From the IMG/VR virus record IMGVR_UViG_3300049484_000359, positions 1 to 48,970 of that record: a stretch of DNA of 48,970 nucleotides; one strand, 5' to 3'. The DNA is from a virus. The notes beneath the pieces were generated by a model. That model was not told where the DNA came from and made no database searches. It saw only the letters and a program-made list of their open reading frames with translations. Made by a program: the position numbers and the translations under genes. Positions 15,840 through 37,817 of the stretch are shown here, piece after piece. Position 1 is the first letter of the stretch, and every line of letters begins with the position of its first letter.

Positions 15840-17716
15840 TGGCTGACTACGACTTCGCTCCCGGTTCAATAGCTCAATTCCGAGGTCGGATGGCTCGGGG
15901 TAGCGTCGATGGTGTGCCTCGAGATTTTGCAATTGACGAAAGAAACAATGAGTTTATTGAGCTGGGAGTGAAGACTCGTAGTGGTTTCGCTTCATTTCTT
16001 CAAACTACCGGTAACTGGAATGGAAAGGTTCTTCGAGGTTACGAGTATAAGAAGCGAAATGAGGCAAGTCGAAGACTCGTACTAGATGACACGGGTAAGA
16101 TCTGGGATACATCAACGGCGATGACAACTCCCATATTGTCAATTGCCACGATGACAGATTTTTCTGCTTTGACTCTATACGACCGAGTTTATATCACGCC
16201 ACATGATGGCGAGCGAGGTCTTTCAAATGAAAAAGTCTACGTCTACGATGGGACTGGAGTTGCCCGAATTGCGGCCGGTGCTGGTCCATCCGGATATACC
16301 CTTGGAGCTGCTACGGGGTCTACAGGAATTGTCGATGCAGGTGTTCATCTCTTCTCAGTTGCCTTTGAGACAGCTTCCGGACATATCACAAAGTTTGGTC
16401 TTGCAGGAGCTGAGGTTGCCACTTACACTGCCCCAGGCAATAAGAAGGTTAACCTTTCAGGGATTCCTACAGGCGGATCTTTCGTTGTTGCGAGACATAT
16501 CATAGTCACAAAAGTTATCAAGGACTACAATGGAAATCCAGTTGATAAGACTTGGTACTTCTTGCCTGATGGAAAGATATCGGATAACGTAACCACAGTT
16601 CTAAACGATATTAACTTCTACGATACGGATCTGATTGATTCTGCTAGTCGACTCATGGATCAGTTGGCCGAGATTCCAGCAGGAAGTTGTATCGGAACTC
16701 TTGGAACTCGTATGGTTGTGGGTGGTGAAAGAGTGAATGATGCCACTCTACGAGTTTCTTTTCCTGGTGAACCCGAGTCGATGTCGGATATTACTGGTAT
16801 TATTAACATAGATCCAGGAGATGCTGGAGGTGGAGTTCGAAACTTTGTAGAGTATAGGTCGAATCTGTACGTTCAGAAGGATTTCAGATTCTATGTAACG
16901 AGTGATAATGAGTCTGATCCCTCGACGTGGAAAGCTCCACAAATTGATGCTTCTCAAGGTACATCCACGCATGGTACTGCTGGCGTTCTAGATTCAAAGG
17001 GACAATCACTTGAATCTTTCTTGATTTGTACTCGAACTGGTCTTTATCGTTTCACTGGATCATTTGGTGATCAACGAGAGCTTTCCTATGTGATTGAGGA
17101 CTTGTGGAAGAGGATCAATCCTGTCTACTTCTATAAGCTCCAAATATCTATCGATCCCATAGTAAAGCGCTTGTACGTTTCGGTTCCGCTTGATACTGCA
17201 ACCTCACCATCGCACATCTTTATGGGTGACTTCTCTGAGGGTCTGACTGCTGATAAGATCAAGTGGTCCATATGGACGCTTCCGAATGCTCCCTCGACTC
17301 ATTGGGTTGAGGTGGATTGGACGACTCGACGTACCATCTTCAGGTATGGTTCCGAAGCGGGTGGTGTGTACTCTCACACTCCTGGACGACTGAATGACTT
17401 CAACAATCTAATCACAAGCTACTATCGTCCAGGTCAATTGGTTGATTCTACCGGAGGAGTGCTACAAATAATAGCAGTTCGAGTGCGTGCTATCGGATCT
17501 GGGAATCTCTATCTCAAACTATATGCGTTAGATGATTCTCAAGTATCTACACTTCCGTCGCTCACTCTTTCCGCCTCACCGGGGAAAGAACTTACTCGAC
17601 TAGTTGGTACGTTTAACAGTGAAAGAATCTCAGTCGAGTTTGGAGTCTCAAGTATAGATCATTGGTATCAGCTTACCAAGATTCGATTGGCCGCCTCGAC
17701 CCTCTGGGAATTGTAG
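15839..17716 (+). CDS. Tail nozzle-like protein
   Basis: 625 residues, beta-rich, containing repeated strand motifs such as LVLDDTGKIWDT, RVYITPHDG, NLYVQKDFRFYVT and ICTRTGLYRFTG that resemble beta-propeller blades. Proteins of this size and type form the hollow nozzle beneath the adaptor (T7 gp12 or P22 gp10-like). Its place right after the adaptor fits. It ends at the GTG start of the next gene. No enzyme motif. Confidence 0.7.
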   Translation: MADYDFAPGSIAQFRGRMARGSVDGVPRDFAIDERNNEFIELGVKTRSGFASFLQTTGNWNGKVLRGYEYKKRNEASRRLVLDDTGKIWDTSTAMTTPILSIATMTDFSALTLYDRVYITPHDGERGLSNEKVYVYDGTGVARIAAGAGPSGYTLGAATGSTGIVDAGVHLFSVAFETASGHITKFGLAGAEVATYTAPGNKKVNLSGIPTGGSFVVARHIIVTKVIKDYNGNPVDKTWYFLPDGKISDNVTTVLNDINFYDTDLIDSASRLMDQLAEIPAGSCIGTLGTRMVVGGERVNDATLRVSFPGEPESMSDITGIINIDPGDAGGGVRNFVEYRSNLYVQKDFRFYVTSDNESDPSTWKAPQIDASQGTSTHGTAGVLDSKGQSLESFLICTRTGLYRFTGSFGDQRELSYVIEDLWKRINPVYFYKLQISIDPIVKRLYVSVPLDTATSPSHIFMGDFSEGLTADKIKWSIWTLPNAPSTHWVEVDWTTRRTIFRYGSEAGGVYSHTPGRLNDFNNLITSYYRPGQLVDSTGGVLQIIAVRVRAIGSGNLYLKLYALDDSQVSTLPSLTLSASPGKELTRLVGTFNSERISVEFGVSSIDHWYQLTKIRLAASTLWEL

Positions 17717-19134
17717 TGGCAGTTACATCTAGCTACGATAAGATCAGCCGCTTGATTGATACATATAGGACGAAGGATCCTCGTCTGGCTGAGATCCTCT
17801 CGACTATTGCATCTGATCTTAATTTGACAATTCTCACGATTAATCCACTACAGGAGACGGTATCAGTTCTTGGTGCCTTTGATGCTGTGCCACCCGATGA
17901 TCTGACGACTGTCGTGGTGTCGCTTCTTCAATTGAACATCCAAATAACTTGGGGAGCAGTTACTGGGGCTCAATTTTACGAGATTCGTGAGGGGGTTGAC
18001 TGGGACACAGCAGTCTTCATACTTAAGACGGCATCGCTTAGTGCTAACATAGAGCCGAGATTGATTGGATCTTATAATCTTCTAATAAAGGGTCTAAGCT
18101 CTGCGTCCGTGTATAGTACCAATGCGATGGCCTTCCAAATCATTATCCCTGCATTGGGATCTATGGTATTGTCTGCCAGTACGATAGACAATAACGTAAT
18201 GCTCAGTTGGAATGCTCCTACGTCTTCTTTTCAAATTCATCACTACAATCTCTACAAGGATACAATCAAGTTCGCCGAGCATAATGGACTCTTCTTTTCT
18301 CGACCCGAGGTAGCTGCTGGTACTTATCTCTTTGAGGTTGAAGCGGTTGACATCGTTGGTAACATGTCGGCAAAGGCGAGTGCAAGTGCAACTGTCAACA
18401 CACCGCCAGATTACATGTTACAAGATGAGAGAACAATTGATCTCTCAACTGTAACAAAGTCGAATGCGGTACTTCAGAATGGAAGGATCATCGCTTGCGT
18501 CAATCTTGTTGAGACATATCAAGACCACTTCACTAGTCGTGGTTGGGCCTCGCCTCAAGATCAGATTGACGATGGGTACGCTCGATGGATTCAGGACAAC
18601 CCACTCACTGGTTATATCCTAGATGAGTATGACTATGGTACGGTTCTTTCAAATACTGTAGCTAGTGTATCCTATGTCAAAGAGATTTACACAGGTACAA
18701 ACGATGTACTCGTAGTTGTAAAAATGAGTTGGAGTGAAGATGGCATAACTTGGAATGACGAACAAATAGGAGAATCGCAGTTCATAGCCTCGCTTCGATA
18801 TCTTAGACTCAAGTTTGAGTTTAATGCATCAAATGACGACGCTATGATATCTTTCTACAATGCAGTGGTAAGATTGAGTGTCAAACGAGAAGTGGACTCT
18901 GGATCGTTCTATGCAGATGAGAACGATTCCAGTGGGACGCTTGTCTTATTCAATAAATCATTTAAGGACGTAGACTCAATTACTGCTACAGCAGCAGAAG
19001 CTCGCACTCCTATCTACGTAAGCGTGAACTTTTTAGACGTTCCGAATCCAGTTTCCTTCAGGGTCCTTGCCTTCGACTCTGCTGGGCGACGAGTTAGTCA
19101 TTGGATTGACTGGAAGGCAAGAGGGATAGTATAA
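17716..19134 (+). CDS. Fibronectin-type tail protein
   Basis: 472 residues from GTG 17716 (GGGAAT upstream). Two fibronectin-III-like units are visible: ITWGAVTGAQFYEIREG... and LSWNAPTSSFQIHHYNLYKD..., with the usual W and Y/L core positions. The N-terminal 90 residues are helical, and the C-terminal half is beta. Such domains sit at tail tips and baseplates and contact host glycans. It follows the nozzle gene directly. Confidence 0.7.
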   Translation: MAVTSSYDKISRLIDTYRTKDPRLAEILSTIASDLNLTILTINPLQETVSVLGAFDAVPPDDLTTVVVSLLQLNIQITWGAVTGAQFYEIREGVDWDTAVFILKTASLSANIEPRLIGSYNLLIKGLSSASVYSTNAMAFQIIIPALGSMVLSASTIDNNVMLSWNAPTSSFQIHHYNLYKDTIKFAEHNGLFFSRPEVAAGTYLFEVEAVDIVGNMSAKASASATVNTPPDYMLQDERTIDLSTVTKSNAVLQNGRIIACVNLVETYQDHFTSRGWASPQDQIDDGYARWIQDNPLTGYILDEYDYGTVLSNTVASVSYVKEIYTGTNDVLVVVKMSWSEDGITWNDEQIGESQFIASLRYLRLKFEFNASNDDAMISFYNAVVRLSVKREVDSGSFYADENDSSGTLVLFNKSFKDVDSITATAAEARTPIYVSVNFLDVPNPVSFRVLAFDSAGRRVSHWIDWKARGIV

Positions 19135-19589: not shown

Positions 19590-20387
19590 ATGTCGCTCTG
19601 GATCAGATACGACGCCTCAAGAGGGATATGGGAGGTAGCTCCGGATGAGGTCTCCCATATCTTTTCTGATCTCGTTGAGAATCATCCTCGAGAATGTGCA
19701 TTTGGAAAGTGGGTTGACTTTAACGGTTTCGCGGATGCTAGAGCTATTAAGTATCAAGATGATGAGATTCAAGGACGTCGTGTCAAGCTGTATGGAGAAG
19801 AAGGACTAGTCAAAGAGATAGCTCGACGTAGAAAGGGTGGAACGTTTGATTGGGGTCCTGGAGAAGTCGATACTCCTCCCAGCGTTTCGCCATCTGGTAA
19901 AGCTCGTGTCTACTTTGATAAAACAACGAATAAACTTCGAGTCTCAGAAAATGCGGGGGCATTTGAAAATCTAGTTAAAGCAGATCCAACTATACCACAC
20001 GCGATGTTTACGAATACAACAGGTGGAGGATCGGCGGCATCATACACAATACCATGGGATACGGAAAGTTTCAACTCTGATAGTTCACTCTTTACTCGAC
20101 AATCTAGTAATACTGAGATCAAAGTTAGCACTACTGGAAAGTATCTAGTCTCATGGCATGCAGATGCAACTGGGAGCGCAAATCAAAGCTTGGCCTGGTA
20201 CTTTTACGTTAATACGACAAGAGAATCACAGTTCGTTGCTTGCGGTGGTGATGTGGGATTTGTTGGTGGATGTGGCACCATGCTACTGCCTCTATCAGCT
20301 AATAACTACGTAAAGTTGACAGTTATTATAGGCACGCATAGTGTATCTGGAACTGACAATCGCATATCCATAGTGAAGGTGGCATGA
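19590..20387 (+). CDS. Fibre protein with C1q-like end
   Basis: 265 residues. A basic middle (EIARRRKGG, residues 76-84) is followed by a C-terminal beta domain (TSYTIPWDTESFN, GKYLVSWHADATGS, QSLAWYFYVN, CGTMLLPLSANNYVKLTV) resembling C1q/TNF-like trimeric heads found at fibre tips. It probably forms a receptor-binding tip. It begins right after the previous stop codon and overlaps the next start codon. Confidence 0.65.
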   Translation: MSLWIRYDASRGIWEVAPDEVSHIFSDLVENHPRECAFGKWVDFNGFADARAIKYQDDEIQGRRVKLYGEEGLVKEIARRRKGGTFDWGPGEVDTPPSVSPSGKARVYFDKTTNKLRVSENAGAFENLVKADPTIPHAMFTNTTGGGSAASYTIPWDTESFNSDSSLFTRQSSNTEIKVSTTGKYLVSWHADATGSANQSLAWYFYVNTTRESQFVACGGDVGFVGGCGTMLLPLSANNYVKLTVIIGTHSVSGTDNRISIVKVA

Positions 20388-20821
20388 TGGCCGACTGGAA
20401 TGACCCACTCATTGATGATCCATATGCTGATCTTCTAGCTACATTTAAGGCTAGAGATGAAGATGCGGCATCTCATGCTGAGAGCCCTACAAATCCTCCT
20501 ATAGGTTATATCAGGTGGGTTGTATCGACATCTAAGTTCCAAAGATGGAGTGGCGCCATATGGGTTGATCTAGTCCTTGCTGTAGGAAGCGGAGGGACGG
20601 GTGGAACTTCAGCACTTGGAACGTTGGCTTTTCAATCAGCCTCAGCAGTTGCAATTACTGGTGGAACGCTTACGGGAGTTGCAATCACGCTAGGTGGTAA
20701 TCTTTCCTTTGATGCGGATGGAACACGAAACATCGGATCTTTCGCGACTCAGGCTGGAAAGATATACGTCAAGAATGCGTGCGTCATCCCAGTCGGACCC
20801 AATAAGTGGGAGACGGTATGA
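20384..20821 (+). CDS. Short tail-fibre-like protein
   Basis: 145 residues, ATG 20384 or 20387. PIGYIRWVVST...FQRWSGAIWVDL and GTLAFQSASAVAITGGTLTG are motifs recurrent in phage tail fibres. Gly/Thr-rich middle, beta C-terminus. It overlaps the zincin start (ATGA at 20818-20821). Likely a fibre or chaperone-like companion. Confidence 0.6.
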   Translation: MMADWNDPLIDDPYADLLATFKARDEDAASHAESPTNPPIGYIRWVVSTSKFQRWSGAIWVDLVLAVGSGGTGGTSALGTLAFQSASAVAITGGTLTGVAITLGGNLSFDADGTRNIGSFATQAGKIYVKNACVIPVGPNKWETV

Positions 20822-21270
20822 TCTTCGATCCTCCTCCTGCAATCGTTGAGAAGTATGAACCTATCTCTCCGTATCCGCTTCGATTTAAAGTGAACGCAGA
20901 TGAGAAACGAAAGAAGTCCATAGCAGAAGCGATCAAAGGAGTACATAAAGGACAGAGATCAATTGTCGATGCATTCAAGCTAAACGTCCTTGATGATCCA
21001 ACGGTAGACATAGTTTTTAACCCAAATAGTAAGTCGAGCGATTCAATTACGGCTTACACAAAGCAAGGAAAGAAGAAGATAAACGTTAATAAATCCTTCT
21101 TCGCAAATCGCACTGATAAAGATAGAACGACTACTCTTAGTCATGAATTGCTTCACGCAGTTGGGCTTCCAGAGCAAATAGAAGGTCACGACTCAGAGTA
21201 CCTCAAACATCCAATAGATGCATCTCAAGCTAACTCTAGAGAGTTGAGGCGGTTACTTGGACTGGATTGA
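20818..21270 (+). CDS. Zinc metalloprotease-like (zincin)
   Basis: 150 residues from ATG 20818 (ATGA overlap; GGGAG upstream). The active-site motif HELLH (H109, E110, H113) is followed by G116 and H124, close to the zincin pattern HExxHxxG. It is too short to be an ordinary secreted protease but long enough for a minimal zincin. The gene overlaps that of the His-x-Asp protein and so may process it, or it may act on host cell wall or virion proteins. Activity is inferred from the motif. Confidence 0.7.
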   Translation: MIFDPPPAIVEKYEPISPYPLRFKVNADEKRKKSIAEAIKGVHKGQRSIVDAFKLNVLDDPTVDIVFNPNSKSSDSITAYTKQGKKKINVNKSFFANRTDKDRTTTLSHELLHAVGLPEQIEGHDSEYLKHPIDASQANSRELRRLLGLD

Positions 21271-22051
21271 GTCAAGTCCAATAAGGCGACGAAGACGAAA
21301 GAAGATAGTTGAATCTTCTTCATATCCAGTCCCAGTAACAGTCTATCTAGATAAGGGACCTGGATCAATTTGGATCGAGGATAAAGAGTTCCACTGGATT
21401 GATTCGAACAAGGCTGAGTGGTATTTTCCTGGTACACTAGTTGAGGCAGCTACAACAGGTAGACCTGGATCTATCTGGATCGAGGGTGACGACTTTCATT
21501 ACATCGACGCATATGGTGATGATAGAAAAGTTTATGGTCCAGTTGGGTCTACTCAGAGTGCTAGACCAAGTATTTGGATAGAGGCAACCTCATCACTCTT
21601 CTCCTGGATAACTGAGCTGTTAGCTAAGAACGTAAGTGGACACGTCGACGTTGTTCACTCAGATACCCATGGTGATACAACGCATAATGATCATGGAGAT
21701 GTTGCTCATGCTGATATTACTCATGTGGATTCTCACGATGATTGGCATAGTGATATTCCACATAGTGATAGTCATAGCGATACTCATAGTGATACACATG
21801 TAGATGAGCATACAGATCATCAAGATGGTTTTAGTCAACCAGATCACTACGACGAGCATACAGACTATCACGATGATTCTCACAGTGACGAAGTTCACTC
21901 AGATGTGAATCATACAGACGATCACGGTGATACGACGCATGGTGATGTCCCTCATACAGATACCCATACGGATCATAACGATAGCGCGCACGTAGATACA
22001 CATGGAGACGTAGTCCACACGGATCTACCAATCTATGTAGGTTTAACATGA
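21257..22051 (+). CDS. His-x-Asp repeat virion protein, probable modification substrate
   Basis: 264 residues, TTG start at 21257 with GAGG about seven bases upstream, overlapping the zincin gene by 14 bases. Residues 8-17 are basic (Arg/Lys run), probably a surface or DNA contact. Residues 35-120 hold three short beta units of the form PGSIWIEGDDFHYID. Residues 129-256 contain 29 histidines, every one in a H-x-D triplet, with Thr, Ser, Val and Gly between; the gene ends in LPIYVGLT. The tract could bind metals, but its place next to a radical SAM enzyme points to modification. The stop overlaps that enzyme's start codon (ATGA). Confidence 0.75.
   Translation: MDWIESSPIRRRRRKKIVESSSYPVPVTVYLDKGPGSIWIEDKEFHWIDSNKAEWYFPGTLVEAATTGRPGSIWIEGDDFHYIDAYGDDRKVYGPVGSTQSARPSIWIEATSSLFSWITELLAKNVSGHVDVVHSDTHGDTTHNDHGDVAHADITHVDSHDDWHSDIPHSDSHSDTHSDTHVDEHTDHQDGFSQPDHYDEHTDYHDDSHSDEVHSDVNHTDDHGDTTHGDVPHTDTHTDHNDSAHVDTHGDVVHTDLPIYVGLT
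21641..22024 (+). repeat. DNA encoding the H-x-D tract
   Basis: Degenerate run of CAY-NNN-GAY codons, 29 copies over about 384 bp. Codons for His and Asp alternate between synonymous forms, so the array is not a simple recent expansion. Confidence 0.8.
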
Positions 22052-23196
22052 CAATAGAAGTCGTCATTACGCCAGCTTGTAACATCAAGTGTACGTATTG
22101 TTATCAAGATCCGATGCGGGATGCTGGTAATTTTGGTGTAGGTCTGCCTCAGTTCGATCGGATCTTTAAGTCTATCGAACAAGCAAATGTAGGTGCAAAG
22201 AAGCCCGGATTCACCGTCTTTGGTGGCGATCCGCTTCTTAATCCCATCCAGACTCTAGAACGTCTATGGGGTTTTGGGTTGGAGAAATACGGTCATAATG
22301 GTGTACAGACTAATGGTGAGTTAATTACGGATGAGCACATTACTTTGTTCATCAAGTACAATGTAGGAGTTGGGATTAGCGTTGATGGACCCTGGCCGTT
22401 GAATAAAGCAAGGAGTGATGAGAAAGGAACAAATAAAACGCTTGATGCTATTAAGAAGTTGAGAGAAGTAAATAGACCGCCCGCGATATCAGTAACGATA
22501 TCTCGAGCTAATGCTAGTCCAGAGCGGCTAGATCAACTTCTTAATTGGATCAAGGAGATAGGTGAGTGGACGTCTGAGATTCGCTTTCATTCTTTAGAGG
22601 TTGATGGAGAAAAGGCTAAGCATTTAGTCCTATCTGAAGCTGATGAGATCGCGGCTTACAGGGCACTGAGTACACTCAAAATCAAAGCAATCATACAGCC
22701 AATGCTGGACATGCGAAATCTTCTAGCTGGAAAGTTCGATGATGTGGGATGTACCTGGAATGGTTGCGATCCACTCTCTACTCCGGCTGTTCAAGGTATA
22801 GGAGCAGATGGTCGATTAACAAATTGCGGAAGGACAAACAAAGATGGCGTGATGTATCAAAAAGCAAATACGCATGGAAATGAAAGAACTATCGCACTGT
22901 ATCATACACCATACGAAGCTGGTGGATGTAAAGATTGTCGATACTTCTTTGCCTGTCGTGGTCAGTGCCCAGGTGAAGCGATAGATGGAGATTGGAGAAA
23001 TCGATCTTCTCATTGTCGCCTTTACTATGCGCTATTTGAGGATATCGAGAAAGAGGTTGGACGTATACCAGATGACAAGATCAAGGAGTATGAACGACGC
23101 ATAACTCTTTCCACATCTGGACATGGAGATCAGCATGGTGACGTGCAGCATGTCGATCATAATATCCTCATGGTTCCTGTAAAGGTCAAGTCATGA
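22048..23196 (+). CDS. Radical SAM/SPASM peptide-modifying enzyme
   Basis: 382 residues. CNIKCTYC (C11, C15, C18) is the radical SAM 4Fe-4S motif; GGDPLLNP, QTNGELIT and GISVDGP are the usual SAM/barrel positions. The SPASM domain is textbook: C-x14-G-x4-C, then CKDC-x5-C-x3-C (CKDCRYFFACRGQC) and a later C. Such enzymes build crosslinks or other changes in peptides. Remarkably, its last 25 residues include three H-x-D triplets (HGD, HGD, HVD), matching the neighbouring substrate-like protein. It overlaps both flanking genes by ATGA. Confidence 0.92.
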   Translation: MTIEVVITPACNIKCTYCYQDPMRDAGNFGVGLPQFDRIFKSIEQANVGAKKPGFTVFGGDPLLNPIQTLERLWGFGLEKYGHNGVQTNGELITDEHITLFIKYNVGVGISVDGPWPLNKARSDEKGTNKTLDAIKKLREVNRPPAISVTISRANASPERLDQLLNWIKEIGEWTSEIRFHSLEVDGEKAKHLVLSEADEIAAYRALSTLKIKAIIQPMLDMRNLLAGKFDDVGCTWNGCDPLSTPAVQGIGADGRLTNCGRTNKDGVMYQKANTHGNERTIALYHTPYEAGGCKDCRYFFACRGQCPGEAIDGDWRNRSSHCRLYYALFEDIEKEVGRIPDDKIKEYERRITLSTSGHGDQHGDVQHVDHNILMVPVKVKS

Positions 23197-24563
23197 ATCG
23201 CACTGGTATTATTCTTCCAGAGTTTACGCGCGTCATCTGGTCATCGGCGGACGCTCAAAAGATGTGGGAGCCTGAGATCCAGAAGGTCAGCAACTACGTT
23301 ACAGACATGGAACTTCAGTCTGTTTTGAGAGGTCGTAAAGCCATCCAGTCAGCATCGGGTCAAAGATTTGCATATGTATCTAACTTTGCCCATCAAAACG
23401 GTTTAGTTATTATAGCACTTGGAGCGACCAACTCAATAAACTACCAATCCAGTCCATCGCCATATAATCCTAATCAACCCTTTGCAGTTAAGTATGCAAT
23501 CCTACGACCTGAGTATGTTGAAAATTTCATAAAGGACTGGAGATCTGGAGATAACGACGCGATTGGTCTTCATCTTGGTTTTCCTAGGTGTTGCCGCGCT
23601 TTCTTCAATCGAGTGTGGGTAGAACAGAAATATCTTGATACGACATGGGCTATGGGAGAAGATCGCGCATTAGGAAATAATATCGAGGCTGGTGGTCCAG
23701 ATGAGTGTAACATCATGCTTCGATGGATGGGTGTACGATCTACCCCACATCTTCCTTGCTCGTTTCATTGTCATCGAACTGTGGACTTTGCTGACACCTT
23801 CAATGACAAATCTCGACCTGAGTATGCATCACTGATGGAAATGCTCTCATGGCCTATTGAGTGGTCAGCCCTTCATGGCATTGCTCGTATTAAGACTCCA
23901 CTCTTTGAGATCGTAACAAGGACAGACCATACGAATGAGAAATATACAGTAAGAAGGGAAGGTAAAAAGTATCCAACTAATGGTGCACGAGGATTGGTCT
24001 TCCCATTCCGTTCACGCCCTGAACAGGAAGTACAAGTTTCCGCGTCGGAAAGTATATGGAAAGATAATGGCTTTTCGACCAAGGAAGCTATGCAGAGTGC
24101 TCATGCCATCATCTTAAATACACTAATTCCTGTGACCCCTGAACTACTTTGTATCCACGACTTTGGATGCGGCAATGGCATGTTGCTTAGTCAGATATCT
24201 AATGTGGTAGAGCATTGCTCGCTTCATGGTGTAGACATAAAGGAGTTTAAGAACCCAAAGTCAAACATCCATTTGCATCAAGCTGATATCATGGAGTACC
24301 ATGAGATCTTCAAGCATACGGGACGAGGTGGACTTGTCTTAATGTCCGTTAATCGATTCGATGACGTGAAAGATGTAGAAAAGCTCAAGCATGTACTTCG
24401 ATATAGTGGGGAGTTCTTCCTCTTTTACTCGTATGATAAATCAGACTTTCAAGTCGATGGAGCTTTTGAGCTACTGAATGAGCAGACAAATGGTATCACG
24501 TACGCTAAGCTCTATCGACAGGAGTTAGGAAAATGGCAAGGCATTTCAGTGATGAAGAAGTAA
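23193..24563 (+). CDS. GFPRCC-domain and methyltransferase fusion
   Basis: 456 residues. N-terminal domain with HLGFPRCCRAFF (C133, C134) and LPCSFHCH (C189, C193), a Cys pattern recalling DUF483-type proteins (G-F/Y-P-x-CC) that accompany radical SAM enzymes and may bind a metal or cluster. The C-terminal domain is a class I methyltransferase with DFGCGNG (323-329), an acidic VDI loop and a VLMSVNRFDD segment. It overlaps the radical SAM gene by ATGA. Probably a second modifying or a carrier protein in the same pathway. Confidence 0.75.
   Translation: MNRTGIILPEFTRVIWSSADAQKMWEPEIQKVSNYVTDMELQSVLRGRKAIQSASGQRFAYVSNFAHQNGLVIIALGATNSINYQSSPSPYNPNQPFAVKYAILRPEYVENFIKDWRSGDNDAIGLHLGFPRCCRAFFNRVWVEQKYLDTTWAMGEDRALGNNIEAGGPDECNIMLRWMGVRSTPHLPCSFHCHRTVDFADTFNDKSRPEYASLMEMLSWPIEWSALHGIARIKTPLFEIVTRTDHTNEKYTVRREGKKYPTNGARGLVFPFRSRPEQEVQVSASESIWKDNGFSTKEAMQSAHAIILNTLIPVTPELLCIHDFGCGNGMLLSQISNVVEHCSLHGVDIKEFKNPKSNIHLHQADIMEYHEIFKHTGRGGLVLMSVNRFDDVKDVEKLKHVLRYSGEFFLFYSYDKSDFQVDGAFELLNEQTNGITYAKLYRQELGKWQGISVMKK
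24010..24024. promoter_or_regulatory. Palindromic site 4, GTTCA-CGCCC-TGAAC
   Basis: Exact copy of the dispersed palindrome inside the fusion gene, reading as codons SRPEQ; so it is kept despite coding constraint. Confidence 0.5.
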
Positions 24564-33185: not shown

Positions 33186-35642
33186 TTACGTCGTGGTTGG
33201 ATCAATGGGCAGAGGTGCTCCCTTCCACTTCTTGAAGTCCTTATAGTTTTCTCCTATTTCCACATCACAAGGAATGACGAGAGAACCGCGTGGAATCGTA
33301 CAACCTGAAAAGTCTATGGGTGTTTCCATGTACTCCTTTGCGTATCCAGCAAACTCATCTTGCATTGTAGCTGGAAACTCAGCAGCAAATGCGTCGTGAG
33401 CTTCCATGACGAATCTGAGGTACTTTCCAAACTTCTTCTTCATCCGCATCATTGACCACTTGGTCTGATCTGATACATCTGCTTGAGGGATATAGCTATC
33501 CATCTCGCGATATAGATCGTCATTCAAGCGATCGAGGAACTGGCGGATCCTTCCTCGTGCTGTGCGTATTGTTCTATTGCCTTGAGCGATAGCTCGGATA
33601 GCAGGCCAGTAAACTTCACTTATCTTGGGGCAGTGCTTATCCAAAACCTTGAGGATCTCACCTGCTCTCCACTCGCTGATCTCGATATCGATATGGAATC
33701 TACGAGCTTGAGTATTTGATTCGATGGATAACCGCTTAGGTGATGTCTCATAGGCGTATGCGTGCCGTCCAATCTTTCCTATGTGTCGCTCAGGTGGATC
33801 CTTACCTGGACCTTTGCAGTATAGTTCTTCCTTTCCACCGAAGATGAATGCCGCAGTTCTTGCATGAACATCTACTCCTTCCGCAAACCATCGAAGAAGC
33901 TCTTCATCTTCTGAGAGGAGAGCCACGACTCGTGCTTCCGCCTGGGACAAGTCAGCGTTTCCGAACAGCAGTTTCTCTCCCGTCTTGAGACGAGTAGGAA
34001 CAAACATCGTACGGATATCTCCGCCAAACTCACCGTGCTTAGTGATAGAGTGTCCCGACAGCCCAATCTGATGCGGTCGTACCGGCGCTCTAAGGATCGA
34101 AGTCGACGTCCTACCCGCCTCCGTTCCACCAATACGGAAACTGGTACGGAAGCGCCCATCGTAGTCCGGACGGAAAGCGATCTTAGATTTGGCATTTTGG
34201 ATTCGTCTAACGTCGATGATGTGACTAAGAATCTTTCTCTTTCGCTCATCCTTGACACGACTGGACATGAGTTGCACGAGGGTATCTTCGTTCGCATCCT
34301 TCCGCCTCGGAATCTTTAGTTCCTCGTATAGCGTAAGCATGACCTGCTTTGGGGAGCGGCAGTTGATTGGATGGCCTATCAGCTCGAAGAGTTCATCTTC
34401 AGTTACTAACTGTTGATTGACATATTTTGCGTAGAGTTTATTTCTGACGTCATAGTCGATCTCCATACCTAGTTCTTCCATCTCCTTGTAGATGGTATGG
34501 AGAGGCATGATGAAGTCAAAGAAAAACTCCGTGAGTCCTATCTCATCCGCCTCTTTTAGAAGAGCATCAAGAACCTCATCTGTAACGGCAGAGTCTCGAC
34601 CGTTATAGATGAAGATCCTAGATAGTGAGTCTTTACTAGGATGATACTCACGATACTCATCCTTGTAGTAGGGCTCTCGAGTGTAGATGGATGTAGAGAA
34701 CTCAAGTGATGCAGGGAACTCTGGATTGACCAGCTTGGCTAAGAGAGAAGTGTCAGCATAAATTCCAGCGGGGAATCTAAAGCCGATGCATTCGAGTTTC
34801 TCCTGGTCATACTTGAGGTTCTGTCCAATGATCTTTATGTCTGGTTCTCGGAAGAGCCTATCAAGTAGACGCCAAATTTCTGCTAGTTCCGTGGATGATA
34901 TCTTGTAGTTACGATCAAGATGTTCCAGCTTTATGAGTGGAACAGAGATGGCTTCCTTACTATCAAAGGCTAAGCCTACCATCATGGGGACACAGTGGTA
35001 AGCCTCGATATCTAGAGAGGCACGACGCTTTCCTTGCTTCGTCCACTTACGCTCCAAGAACTCGTATAGATCAAGGGAGCGAGTGGCATAGTGGAGATTA
35101 CGATGCGGAAGCTCTAGCTCCTTTGTTTGTGCTTCCTCTACCGCACGTGCTACATCTAGCTGTATGTAGATCCGTGCAGAGTATGGGAATAGACCTTGCT
35201 TTCCTCGTCTCTCAAAGAGATTGGATGGGTGGATTGTTGATACGACTTTCGAGTTGATATATGGAACGGGAAGTATCGAGCCTCTCCACTTCGTGATTCC
35301 ACTCTCACCCGTCAGAGCGTGCAGTGCTGTATTACCTAGAGCGAGGATGCAGTTAGGTCGTATTGCCTTGAGAGTTTCCCACATCTCAGCGATGCCCTCT
35401 TCCAACTCATGCCCAGTCATGGATGCTTTACGTATGTCATCACCTGGTGGTCGATACGGAAAGACGTTCATATAGAACGCCTCTGATGGGTTCATTCCAG
35501 CATTGCGAAGCATGGACTTAACTTCACCGCCAGTTGGCCCTACAAACGGTTGACCCATTTCGTCCTCGTATCGACCTGGAGATTCCCCAAGCACGACGAG
35601 CTTTGCGCAAGATGGTCCATAGCCTGGGACGTATCGGCTCAT
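33186..35642 (-). CDS. Uracil-DNA glycosylase/DNA polymerase I fusion
   Basis: 818 residues. Residues 1-185 are a family-4-type UDG: GESPG (19-23), GQPFVGPTGG (30-39), MNVFPYRPP and TIHPS; most of the family's cluster Cys are absent, only C12 and C98 being seen. A 3'-5' exonuclease follows (D211, E213; N275, D279; Y346, D350). The polymerase core has motif A NADLSQAEARV (D564), motif B RHIGKIGRHAYAY (619-631) and motif C AHDA at 748-751, with Ala in place of the usual Glu. It is the replicative polymerase; the UDG part may keep uracil out of DNA. Confidence 0.9.
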   Translation of the reverse strand: MSRYVPGYGPSCAKLVVLGESPGRYEDEMGQPFVGPTGGEVKSMLRNAGMNPSEAFYMNVFPYRPPGDDIRKASMTGHELEEGIAEMWETLKAIRPNCILALGNTALHALTGESGITKWRGSILPVPYINSKVVSTIHPSNLFERRGKQGLFPYSARIYIQLDVARAVEEAQTKELELPHRNLHYATRSLDLYEFLERKWTKQGKRRASLDIEAYHCVPMMVGLAFDSKEAISVPLIKLEHLDRNYKISSTELAEIWRLLDRLFREPDIKIIGQNLKYDQEKLECIGFRFPAGIYADTSLLAKLVNPEFPASLEFSTSIYTREPYYKDEYREYHPSKDSLSRIFIYNGRDSAVTDEVLDALLKEADEIGLTEFFFDFIMPLHTIYKEMEELGMEIDYDVRNKLYAKYVNQQLVTEDELFELIGHPINCRSPKQVMLTLYEELKIPRRKDANEDTLVQLMSSRVKDERKRKILSHIIDVRRIQNAKSKIAFRPDYDGRFRTSFRIGGTEAGRTSTSILRAPVRPHQIGLSGHSITKHGEFGGDIRTMFVPTRLKTGEKLLFGNADLSQAEARVVALLSEDEELLRWFAEGVDVHARTAAFIFGGKEELYCKGPGKDPPERHIGKIGRHAYAYETSPKRLSIESNTQARRFHIDIEISEWRAGEILKVLDKHCPKISEVYWPAIRAIAQGNRTIRTARGRIRQFLDRLNDDLYREMDSYIPQADVSDQTKWSMMRMKKKFGKYLRFVMEAHDAFAAEFPATMQDEFAGYAKEYMETPIDFSGCTIPRGSLVIPCDVEIGENYKDFKKWKGAPLPIDPTTT

Positions 35643-35968
35643 TTGTTTGTTATCCCCTTTAGAGCTGCGTCTCTTTCATTGAGAGCTTTTTCAAGTTGAC
35701 GTTGTAGGTGTGTTCGTTCATCTCTCATCTTGTTGACTATATCAAAGTTGACTTCCCAGTAATCATCCCACTTTTTCTGTGCCGCGTCCCTTTCTTTCCT
35801 TGTCAACTCCAAAGCATCCTTGAGAAGTTTCACACTTAACTCAAAGATCTCAATCATAGCAAGATGCGGTTTCTCATGGATAACTAGACTCTTTTCAAGC
35901 TCCTCTGGCGTTAGCCTCCAATTACTTGCCATAGAGTGTATCGCAGCGGCTAGTTCTTTGTTATTCAT
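35639..35968 (-). CDS. Coiled-coil hypothetical protein
   Basis: 109 residues from ATG 35968, which has GGA six bases upstream; a longer start at 35986 lacks a ribosome site. Two heptad-rich helices (about residues 41-65 and 79-103), Glu/Lys/Arg-rich. It overlaps the polymerase gene by four bases. Function unknown. Confidence 0.65.
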   Translation of the reverse strand: MNNKELAAAIHSMASNWRLTPEELEKSLVIHEKPHLAMIEIFELSVKLLKDALELTRKERDAAQKKWDDYWEVNFDIVNKMRDERTHLQRQLEKALNERDAALKGITNK

Positions 35969-36164: not shown

Positions 36165-36394
36165 TTCAACCTTCCTTTTTCAGCGTCTATCCAGCCACTT
36201 ACATCTAATATGGCCTTAGCTAAAAACTTCTCAGCTGAAGTTGACTTTGGATCAGCTAATATAGTTCGAGCTGATTCTACTCCTTCTTGTATTGCTTTTT
36301 CAGATCGCTTGATCGATTCATTGAACGCGTCGAGGATGATGTATTGGTTATCTTCTATGTATTTTATCGCCGCCTTTGTTTCTTCCTCCGTCAT
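36161..36394 (-). CDS. Small helical hypothetical protein
   Basis: 77 residues, charged, all-helical by composition, no Cys. Its start overlaps the upstream ParB/methyltransferase stop codon by four bases and its stop overlaps the next start codon, so it is translationally coupled. No function can be assigned. Confidence 0.7.
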   Translation of the reverse strand: MTEEETKAAIKYIEDNQYIILDAFNESIKRSEKAIQEGVESARTILADPKSTSAEKFLAKAILDVSGWIDAEKGRLK

Positions 36395-37653
36395 TTTAAT
36401 CTCTCCACAATCTGCTCGTAAAACTTATGATCTCGCTCGATACCAATGTACCGACGTCGTGTATCTTTACAAGCGTGAAGGTGCGAGCCTGAACCAGCAA
36501 AAGGATCAAGGATGATTGATCCCTCATGAGAGAAATCACCAAGTAGATCCTTAAGAAGTGGGAGGGGCTTCTCATTGGGATGACTTAGTGATACGGGTGG
36601 AATAGGTGGATAGATCTTGATGGAGCTTTTCTGTACCGATTGGACGAGAGCTGGGGATCCCTTTACTGCTAGAAGAATCAGCTCAAAGTCTCGACTATAC
36701 TCCCAAGATCGTGCACCCTTGGAGAGTACCATGCCATGAAGCTGATTGTCCTGAATGGACTTCTTCACCCACAAGAGTGGAGTCTTGGAAACTGTGAAGC
36801 CCATCTGTGGAAGCTGTCGAGAGTACGAATAGAAGTCATCAAACCCAACAAACATGTAAAGAAAAGCATCGGCTTTGAGGACCCGATAGATTTCCTTGAA
36901 GACAGGGAGAGTCTCGTCATCTCGTGTCAACTTGGCATCTATATACTTGAGCCAAGGCGGATCGGTGAAACAGGCATTGAACGTATGCCCATCGAACTGC
37001 TTGAGGATATCCGCGGCGGAGCCATTATAGACTTGATTTACTCGGAAGTCTACGGGCATCTCAGCATACATCTCAGACTCAATACGCTTGGCGGCAGATC
37101 TCACGAGGCGGACGGCGGTGTCTCTATCTTTGATGTTGCGTAGGGATGGGTCACGTTTGACTGCACGATCCAGCATGGCAGCTTCTGATACAAACCCAAG
37201 TGATAAATGCAACTCTTGAGCTGTATCTCTCATCGACCATCCGGGATTCTCTCTGCTCTTCTTTCCCTTGATAGGTTCCGAGACTCCATGGATCTGCTGC
37301 TTTGTATCATGCCACTTTGACACAAGCTCGGCAAATTCCCACCATGGAAGGTTGACTCGTTGAAGGTTTTCCTCGAGGGAAATGAGCTTGATCTCGGTTT
37401 CCTCTCCCGATGTGATACGACATGGGATAGACCCAACTCCAAGTATCTGACAGGCCTTGAGACGGCGCCGACCTGCTACTACCTTGAATTGTTGAGTACC
37501 ATCTGGCAAGCTGTTCAGAGCCTGAACAGTAATTGGATGCAACAATCCCTTGGATTTGATGGACTCGACTAGGTCATCAAGATTGGGATCAACACTTCCA
37601 TCTTCACAGATAAGAAGTTGCGCTGGGATATGGACGGTTTCTAGATCGATCAC
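36391..37653 (-). CDS. ParB-domain/DNA methyltransferase fusion
   Basis: 420 residues. ParB/Spo0J nuclease-like domain at 1-100: GLLHPITV (36-43) and VVAGRRRLKAC (58-68), then a helix-turn-helix (141-161). The DNA methyltransferase follows: DPPW (231-234, motif IV), HPNEKP (motif X-like) and a C-terminal DPFAGSGSH (383-391, motif I), the order of class-beta N4/N6 enzymes. Such fusions methylate phage DNA, perhaps against host restriction. It contains palindromic site 6. Confidence 0.9.
   Translation of the reverse strand: MIDLETVHIPAQLLICEDGSVDPNLDDLVESIKSKGLLHPITVQALNSLPDGTQQFKVVAGRRRLKACQILGVGSIPCRITSGEETEIKLISLEENLQRVNLPWWEFAELVSKWHDTKQQIHGVSEPIKGKKSRENPGWSMRDTAQELHLSLGFVSEAAMLDRAVKRDPSLRNIKDRDTAVRLVRSAAKRIESEMYAEMPVDFRVNQVYNGSAADILKQFDGHTFNACFTDPPWLKYIDAKLTRDDETLPVFKEIYRVLKADAFLYMFVGFDDFYSYSRQLPQMGFTVSKTPLLWVKKSIQDNQLHGMVLSKGARSWEYSRDFELILLAVKGSPALVQSVQKSSIKIYPPIPPVSLSHPNEKPLPLLKDLLGDFSHEGSIILDPFAGSGSHLHACKDTRRRYIGIERDHKFYEQIVERLK
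37513..37527. promoter_or_regulatory. Palindromic site 6, GTTCA-GAGCC-TGAAC
   Basis: Exact copy within the ParB-domain codons, extended to CTGTTCAG/CTGAACAG. It reads VQALN on the minus strand. Its presence in a ParB-like gene is suggestive but not proof. Confidence 0.55.
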
Positions 37654-37817
37654 TTTGTCACCTCATCTACTGCTATTGGAGCGCCAGCATCCCAAGTAAT
37701 TGCCCATTTTCTTTTTGTCTCGGAATCTGTGGCAGTTAGGGTGTACTTTAGGTGATTATCCTTTACATCAAGCCACCATCCACCACTTTCTTGATCAAGC
37801 ATTCCGATATCCATCAT
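37650..37817 (-). CDS. Small hypothetical protein
   Basis: 55 residues beginning MMDIGMLDQESGGWW. AAGGAG is five bases upstream of the ATG at 37817; starts at 37820 or 37814 are possible. A longer frame lacks a ribosome site and overlaps the zinc-finger gene that follows. No motif; acidic. Confidence 0.6.
   Translation of the reverse strand: MMDIGMLDQESGGWWLDVKDNHLKYTLTATDSETKRKWAITWDAGAPIAVDEVTK

Follow-up and report, generated by a model that had tools for sequence, protein, structure and literature searches.

The His-Xaa-Ser HxsB/HxsC system was reportedly described by Haft and Basu. C2(His)-Cbeta(Ala), C2(His)-Cbeta(Arg) and C3(Tyr)-Cbeta(Asp) are among the known triceptides, and several three-residue cyclophane substrates show an aromatic-x-Asp/Asn pattern (PMC11002830). 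ChlB is a multiple cyclophane synthase (PMC12636437). In phages, a radical SAM module has been described in the Thermus phages Cumys and phiMa and also in prophages, with DUF483-methyltransferase fusions, and the passages on this module suggest DNA modification on the basis of deazapurine genes near cyanobacterial homologues (PMC11437467). Our search of the open-licence part of PMC found this module paper and nothing on HxD tails, the HxD repeats or the cyclophane reading.

The stretch of DNA analysed here, hereafter the window, is a 48,970-base virus record that contains a terminase, a weak portal match, a DNA polymerase and further phage genes. Its tail-like region holds a cassette of three genes that overlap stop-to-start: an HxD-repeat protein, the probable substrate (21257..22051, + strand), whose stop overlaps the ATG of a 382-residue radical SAM/SPASM enzyme (22048..23196, +), whose stop is in turn overlapped by the start of a DUF483-type protein with a fused methyltransferase-like domain (23193..24563, +). 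The DUF483 match of the latter reaches only E 0.048 (Pfam), and it aligns at 30-31% with phage DUF483 proteins. The radical SAM gene, the DUF483 gene and the third gene are adjacent in the same order in the window, Cumys and phiMa. Upstream lie a protein with matches to tail families (17662-19131; phrog_1727 and phrog_31) and a small fibre-like protein ending VIPVGPNKWETV (20384..20821, +; phrog_1325, a family of unknown function, E 1.4e-5). Immediately upstream of the HxD protein, a SprT/metalloprotease-like gene (20806-21270) could process it. Elsewhere in the window, a uracil-DNA-glycosylase-like domain is fused to a family A DNA polymerase (33189-35675, - strand), and an N6/N4 DNA methylase to a ParB-like N-terminal domain (36394-37662, -). 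We consider it fairly probable that these genes form a viral cassette for protein maturation which cross-links a probable tail-fibre protein, its enzyme carrying a substrate mimic in cis.

The enzyme matches PF04055 (62.8 bits for a cut-off of 29.5, E 5.9e-17; Pfam) and phrog_1802 (E 2.9e-29; PHROGs). The CxxxCxxC cluster motif of radical SAM proteins starts at residue 11, and C11, C15 and C18 are invariant among the aligned enzymes. The protein starts at the catalytic domain and lacks a recognition domain at its N-terminus; the substrate must therefore be delivered by other means. SPASM domains carry a seven-cysteine motif, CX9-15GX4C...CX2CX5CX3C...C. The enzyme has all of it, as C240-x14-G255-x4-C260, C294-x2-C297-x5-C303-x3-C307 and C323, each cysteine being invariant in 29 sequences. 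The AlphaFold model (mean pLDDT 82.5) predicts a SPASM-type fold, for which the top solved folds in Foldseek are peptide-bound anSME and then ChlB. The enzyme is thus a SPASM radical SAM protein. The cyclophane-forming models AmcB, DynA, YhhB, OscB, XyeB and FxsB match all 29 enzymes scanned, with scores for the window enzyme far under the curated cyclophane-maturase cut-offs (AmcB 69.9 for 425 bits, YhhB 56.8 for 445, OscB 45 for 310), and the HxsB model gives 31.9 bits for a cut-off of 370. By score it lies outside every curated cyclophane or Hxs family.

The HxD-repeat gene of the window has a TTG start with GAGG 7 bases upstream. Its product contains two or three GSxWIE...YID units followed by about 130 residues with 29 HxD triplets, all towards the C-terminus, and phiMa and Cumys encode a relative of its N-terminal part. 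At least two GSxWxE-type units are found in 18 of 31 clusters. Triplet statistics were drawn from 40 repeat regions in 31 clusters (8656 residues), delimited by H-x-[D/N] and not by Phe. Because of this delimitation, the excess of His with Asp/Asn at +2 (1376/1392, 315 expected) is partly built in. That of Phe (106/161, 35 expected) does not arise by construction and comes mostly from one clade (77/90; elsewhere 29/71, 16.8 expected). Tyr shows no enrichment overall (39/161, 35.9 expected), with a mild excess outside the Phe-rich clade (39/108, 26.1 expected) and 0/53 within it, and neither Glu (5/72) nor Cys (1/9) is in excess. The repeat proteins therefore follow a [His/Phe]-x-[Asp/Asn] rule, as triceptide substrate triplets do, and are putative substrates; they are not HxS repeats, the +2 residue being Asp/Asn and not Ser. 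Thioether chemistry of the sactipeptide or ranthipeptide type is unlikely, with only 9 Cys among the 8656 repeat-region residues. In one clade of viral contigs (L015-L030, e.g. L017:7000-7932), several adjacent H-x-D/H-x-N/F-x-N proteins lie beside the enzyme, and some of these triplet proteins end in Cys-rich stretches.

Both His and Asp commonly coordinate metals; F-x-N is an unusual chelator. The triplets could be metal ligands, the tail of the enzyme delivering iron to the Fe-S clusters and the repeats forming a metal-stiffened fibre, with no covalent change, a reading for which the compact HGDHxD consensus of the tail would be suitable. We find it quite unlikely: where His is replaced it is Phe that is enriched and not Glu or Cys, so that the aromatic-x-Asp/Asn pattern speaks against metal binding, and the conserved radical SAM and DUF483 genes would be left unexplained.

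Regarding the nature of the repeat proteins, scans with Pfam and PHROGs revealed lectin-type LamG domains in two HxD proteins and no tail family in several HxD proteins scanned, and most of the repeat proteins tested have no match among known tail families. The large upstream gene, taken once in each of nine loci, was named a tail protein by PHROGs in two of them (L008 and L028), and the repeat genes sit in tail modules, annotated as such in Cumys. The VLPVGxDKW motif is present in 9 of 29 loci, at a threshold that misses the window variant, and a small protein ending in it often lies shortly upstream of the HxD gene; in our reading, these small proteins belong to the same family as the window protein at 20384..20821. 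Taken with the GSxWxE-type units, these features make the repeat proteins probable fibre proteins, which would place them in the virion.

These data also bear on the proposal made for the same module in Thermus phages, that the cassette modifies DNA, in which case the HxD protein and the tail would be a nucleic-acid or metal-binding element. It draws on the homologues near cyanobacterial deazapurine DNA-modification genes and the DUF483-methyltransferase fusions reported in the passages on the module (PMC11437467), and many DUF483 proteins of the present set likewise contain a methyltransferase-like part. However, QueC occurs in 1/25 and TGT in 0/25 cassette-bearing records (many of them fragments), so that deazapurine genes are rare in this set; the SPASM motif and the fold, like almost every one of the leading family matches, belong to enzymes that modify proteins or peptides; and the 29-fold [H/F]-x-[D/N] repeat beside the enzyme, repeated on the enzyme, looks like a substrate. 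DNA modification by the cassette therefore seems unlikely to us, and we retain protein maturation as the preferred reading.

The initial annotation held that three H-x-D triplets close the C-terminus of the enzyme after the SPASM domain, and the translation confirms it. It ends ...SGHGDQHGDVQHVDHNILMVPVKVKS, with HGD at 23122-23130, HGD at 23134-23142 and HVD at 23149-23157, all in the last 24 residues. This tail (23119..23168, +), of pattern HGD-Q-HGD-VQ-HVD, begins 36 residues past the last SPASM cysteine. AlphaFold gives pLDDT below 50 at residues 357-382, so that the tail is predicted to be disordered, and does not place it in the active site. Shuffling the 59-residue post-SPASM stretch of the window produced three HxD in 0.3% of cases (n=2000), and a count over the enzyme family is a stronger test.

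Relatives were gathered by enzyme similarity from phage records, viral contigs and genome contigs, with no HxD in the search patterns, and by a second, independent route, the HxD repeat pattern in viral contigs (at least 120 loci). A single-protein query (P0001) of the viral contigs gave nothing; an alignment query succeeded. With a profile of four enzymes, at least 50 ORFs scored at least 100 bits, and the 47 with an intact C-terminus form 33 clusters at 90% identity among the matches listed; three family ORFs, one apiece from L139, L152 and L174, are truncated on the 3' side by the contig edge and were left out of the tail count. Past the last SPASM cysteine, two or more HxD are present in 29 of the 33 clusters, again among the matches listed: 18/21 by the enzyme-similarity route, window included, and, among the matches listed, 11/12 by the HxD-pattern route. 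Such an ending is found in 0/72 distant radical SAM ORFs and in 6/715 other ORFs of at least 150 residues from the same loci, all six being HxD/HxN-rich at their end. Since the majority of distant relatives keep the same ending, the tail is a real working part of the enzyme.

The clusters without a full tail are L024, L041 (Sphaerisporangium) and L042 (Sphingomonas), with no HxD, and L123, with one. Two further bacterial genomes, L226 and L227, also lack an HxD tail on the enzyme. All four chromosomal bacterial enzymes are tail-less, and they group together on the tree (94/95 support). With these six relatives, it would be too strong to say that the tail always accompanies a repeat protein; its conservation among homologues stands; the tail is usual but not essential, and the enzyme works without it. 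On a tree of the enzyme cores, built with the tail excluded, its presence requires 3 changes compared with a shuffled mean of 5.6, showing that it was kept through deep divergence, the details being unsure on a tree with several long branches. Between the SPASM domain and the first HxD lies a linker of variable length, 24 to 95 residues, whose sequence is unconserved, yet the tail is conserved. Searching genomes further, we obtained a strong match in 1/296 for the order of the Sphingomonas genome, the already-known one, and in 3/394 for the class of the Sphaerisporangium genome, two of them new. Two side observations concern the family itself. L139 carries a tandem pair of family radical SAM genes (L139:10391-13315), the first with 14 HxD in its tail, mainly as HGDHTD units. 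A deeply divergent enzyme subfamily is present in the viral contigs L123, L171 and L174; L171 still has both an HxD tail and an HxD protein near the enzyme, and L123 has such a protein nearby.

A further point was that the tail makes a sequence link between enzyme and repeat protein, and the homologues, which keep both, bear this out. An HxD protein lies near the enzyme in 32 of the 33 clusters (31 by threshold, and L123 by inspection), the sole exception being L007, an 8 kb contig. A DUF483-type gene is present in 31/33, being absent from L123 and L139, and in many relatives its product includes a methyltransferase-like part. Tail and HxD-repeat protein are both found in the Thermus phages Cumys, phiMa and phiLo. 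Conversely, the HxD pattern scan of at least 120 loci gave an HxD-rich ORF by threshold in 22, and 13 of these also have the radical SAM gene. Among the nine others, seven (L120, L178, L185, L195, L205, L211, L219) seem on visual inspection to be simple repeats or wrong frames, L189 stops at the HxD gene, and L208 has a genuine-looking HxD protein and no radical SAM gene in its 10.9 kb. In L226 and L227, from actinobacterial-class genomes, the radical SAM and DUF483 parts share a single open frame, and the large protein next to it has HxD at its end. L226, L227 and L042 are chromosomal cassettes in which the HxD triplets stand at the end of a large protein and the enzyme has no HxD tail. On a haloarchaeal Halomicrococcus plasmid (L231:4338-6554), the cassette lies beside a baseplate gene, with H/Y/F-x-D/N repeats and one HxD in the tail region of the enzyme; L230, another haloarchaeal homologue, has neither a tail nor an HxD protein within 5 kb.

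Three explanations had been put forward for the tail: self-modification, a docking mimic or a recent exchange between the two genes. The third would mean that a recent recombination in this phage duplicated part of the repeat gene at the 3' end of the enzyme gene, and the identical amino-acid motif in the neighbouring gene is what would be expected from it. Nevertheless, the tail has a consensus of its own, HGDH[T/W/Y]D, with HxDHxD in 25/33 tails, though not in that of the window. The middle residue is Gly in 66/126 tail triplets versus 143/1002 repeat triplets, which favour Ser/Thr (463/1002), and triplets are spaced by exactly 3 in 38/98 cases in the tail versus 88/974 in the repeats, where spacings of 5 and 4 account for 574/974. 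Over 28 clusters, these differences give paired Wilcoxon p values of 8e-5 and 1e-5. At the DNA level, the longest word that a tail shares with the repeat gene beside it is 10.0 bp on average, near the background of 9.0 bp with the repeat genes of other phages, and equal-length pieces within one repeat gene share 14.0 bp. Because of this separate consensus and background DNA sharing, recent exchange is rejected. The homologues, with the tail in 29/33 clusters, refute a purely local recombination, which we regard as extremely improbable. Simple DNA slippage was also considered. Tandem Repeats Finder reports no array in the tail and, for the repeat gene, only arrays that are short and weak; the motif is therefore maintained at the protein level. 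Judged from its sequence, the tail is an old motif under separate selection, for which self-modification and docking mimicry are both possible.

In the mechanism that we propose, the enzyme would act on the [His/Phe]-x-[Asp/Asn] triplets in the repeat protein next to it. Most probably, it would bond the aromatic ring of the first residue to the beta-carbon of the third, giving a three-residue cyclophane. Since triceptides with a His half and with an Asp half are known, His-x-Asp would combine known halves. A flexible charged stretch of the probable tail-fibre protein would thereby become a chain of small rings. The tail would be a conserved substrate mimic in cis, whose linker of 24-95 residues could reach the peptide site of its own or of a partner subunit; most likely, it would occupy the site while substrate is absent, for docking or gating, and would itself be modified. 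The Gly-rich, tightly spaced consensus, which differs from that of the substrate, would also be compatible with some role besides mimicry. As the main alternative, the tail would be a homotypic adhesion tag outside the active site, which would hold the enzyme on the growing fibre by binding either the HxD stretch or the DUF483 protein. It would be in keeping with the distinct consensus, the flexible linker and the L226 and L227 enzymes, which are fused to DUF483 and have no HxD tail; however, L041 and L042 are tail-less without such a fusion, and we judge this alternative rather unlikely. Going beyond the cassette reading, we put forward only tentatively, and with more doubt than belief, that viruses of bacteria and haloarchaea use a radical SAM enzyme to cross-link tail fibres, whose [H/F]-x-[D/N] repeats become poly-cyclophane rods, and that this enzyme also cyclises the HxD tail that it carries, giving itself an integral gate or docking element. 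If so, we know of no earlier virion-protein maturation of this kind.

The window and the Thermus phage module share the same three genes, radical SAM, DUF483 and third protein. For the latter, PMC11437467 proposes DNA modification of unspecified type, and its passages on the module mention neither HxD repeats nor a cyclophane reading nor the tail. The module is widespread among phages, and for it the protein-maturation reading offers a specific alternative to the published proposal that can be put to the test. Since the cultured Thermus phages Cumys, phiMa and phiLo carry the cassette, a direct test on virions is possible. It would suggest that phages harden a structural protein by radical chemistry, and the conserved substrate-like tail offers a handle on how a maturase may find its sites, and iterate over dozens of them, without a recognition domain. 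The triceptide enzymes XncB, OscB, YxdB, HaaB and YhhB are likewise SPASM radical SAM proteins beside aromatic-x-Asp/Asn repeats (PMC11002830); their substrates are small peptides, whereas here the probable substrate is a fibre-like phage protein with tens of triplets, the motif is also on the enzyme, and the cross-link is putative. ChlB (PDB 9gm3, 9gmc), among the closest solved folds at 17-18% identity, is bound in its solved complexes to a leader-bearing precursor. In the His-Xaa-Ser system, HxsB/HxsC similarly link a radical SAM maturase with a His-x-residue repeat protein (PMC9062424), residue 3 being Ser there and Asp/Asn here, where no HxsC/HxsD partner came to notice. In TvgA/TvgB, a SPASM-type radical SAM enzyme also modifies a short repeated motif many times, but it converts Val within TVGG to cyclopropylglycine (PMC9062424). 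Finally, borosins also have their own core motif at the C-terminus of the enzyme (PMC8429565). They are backbone N-methyltransferases (PMC8429565), whereas the window enzyme is a radical SAM protein and not an alpha-N-methyltransferase fused to its core, and its locus also encodes a separate substrate protein; if it does cyclise itself, it would be the radical SAM counterpart of the self-modifying borosins.
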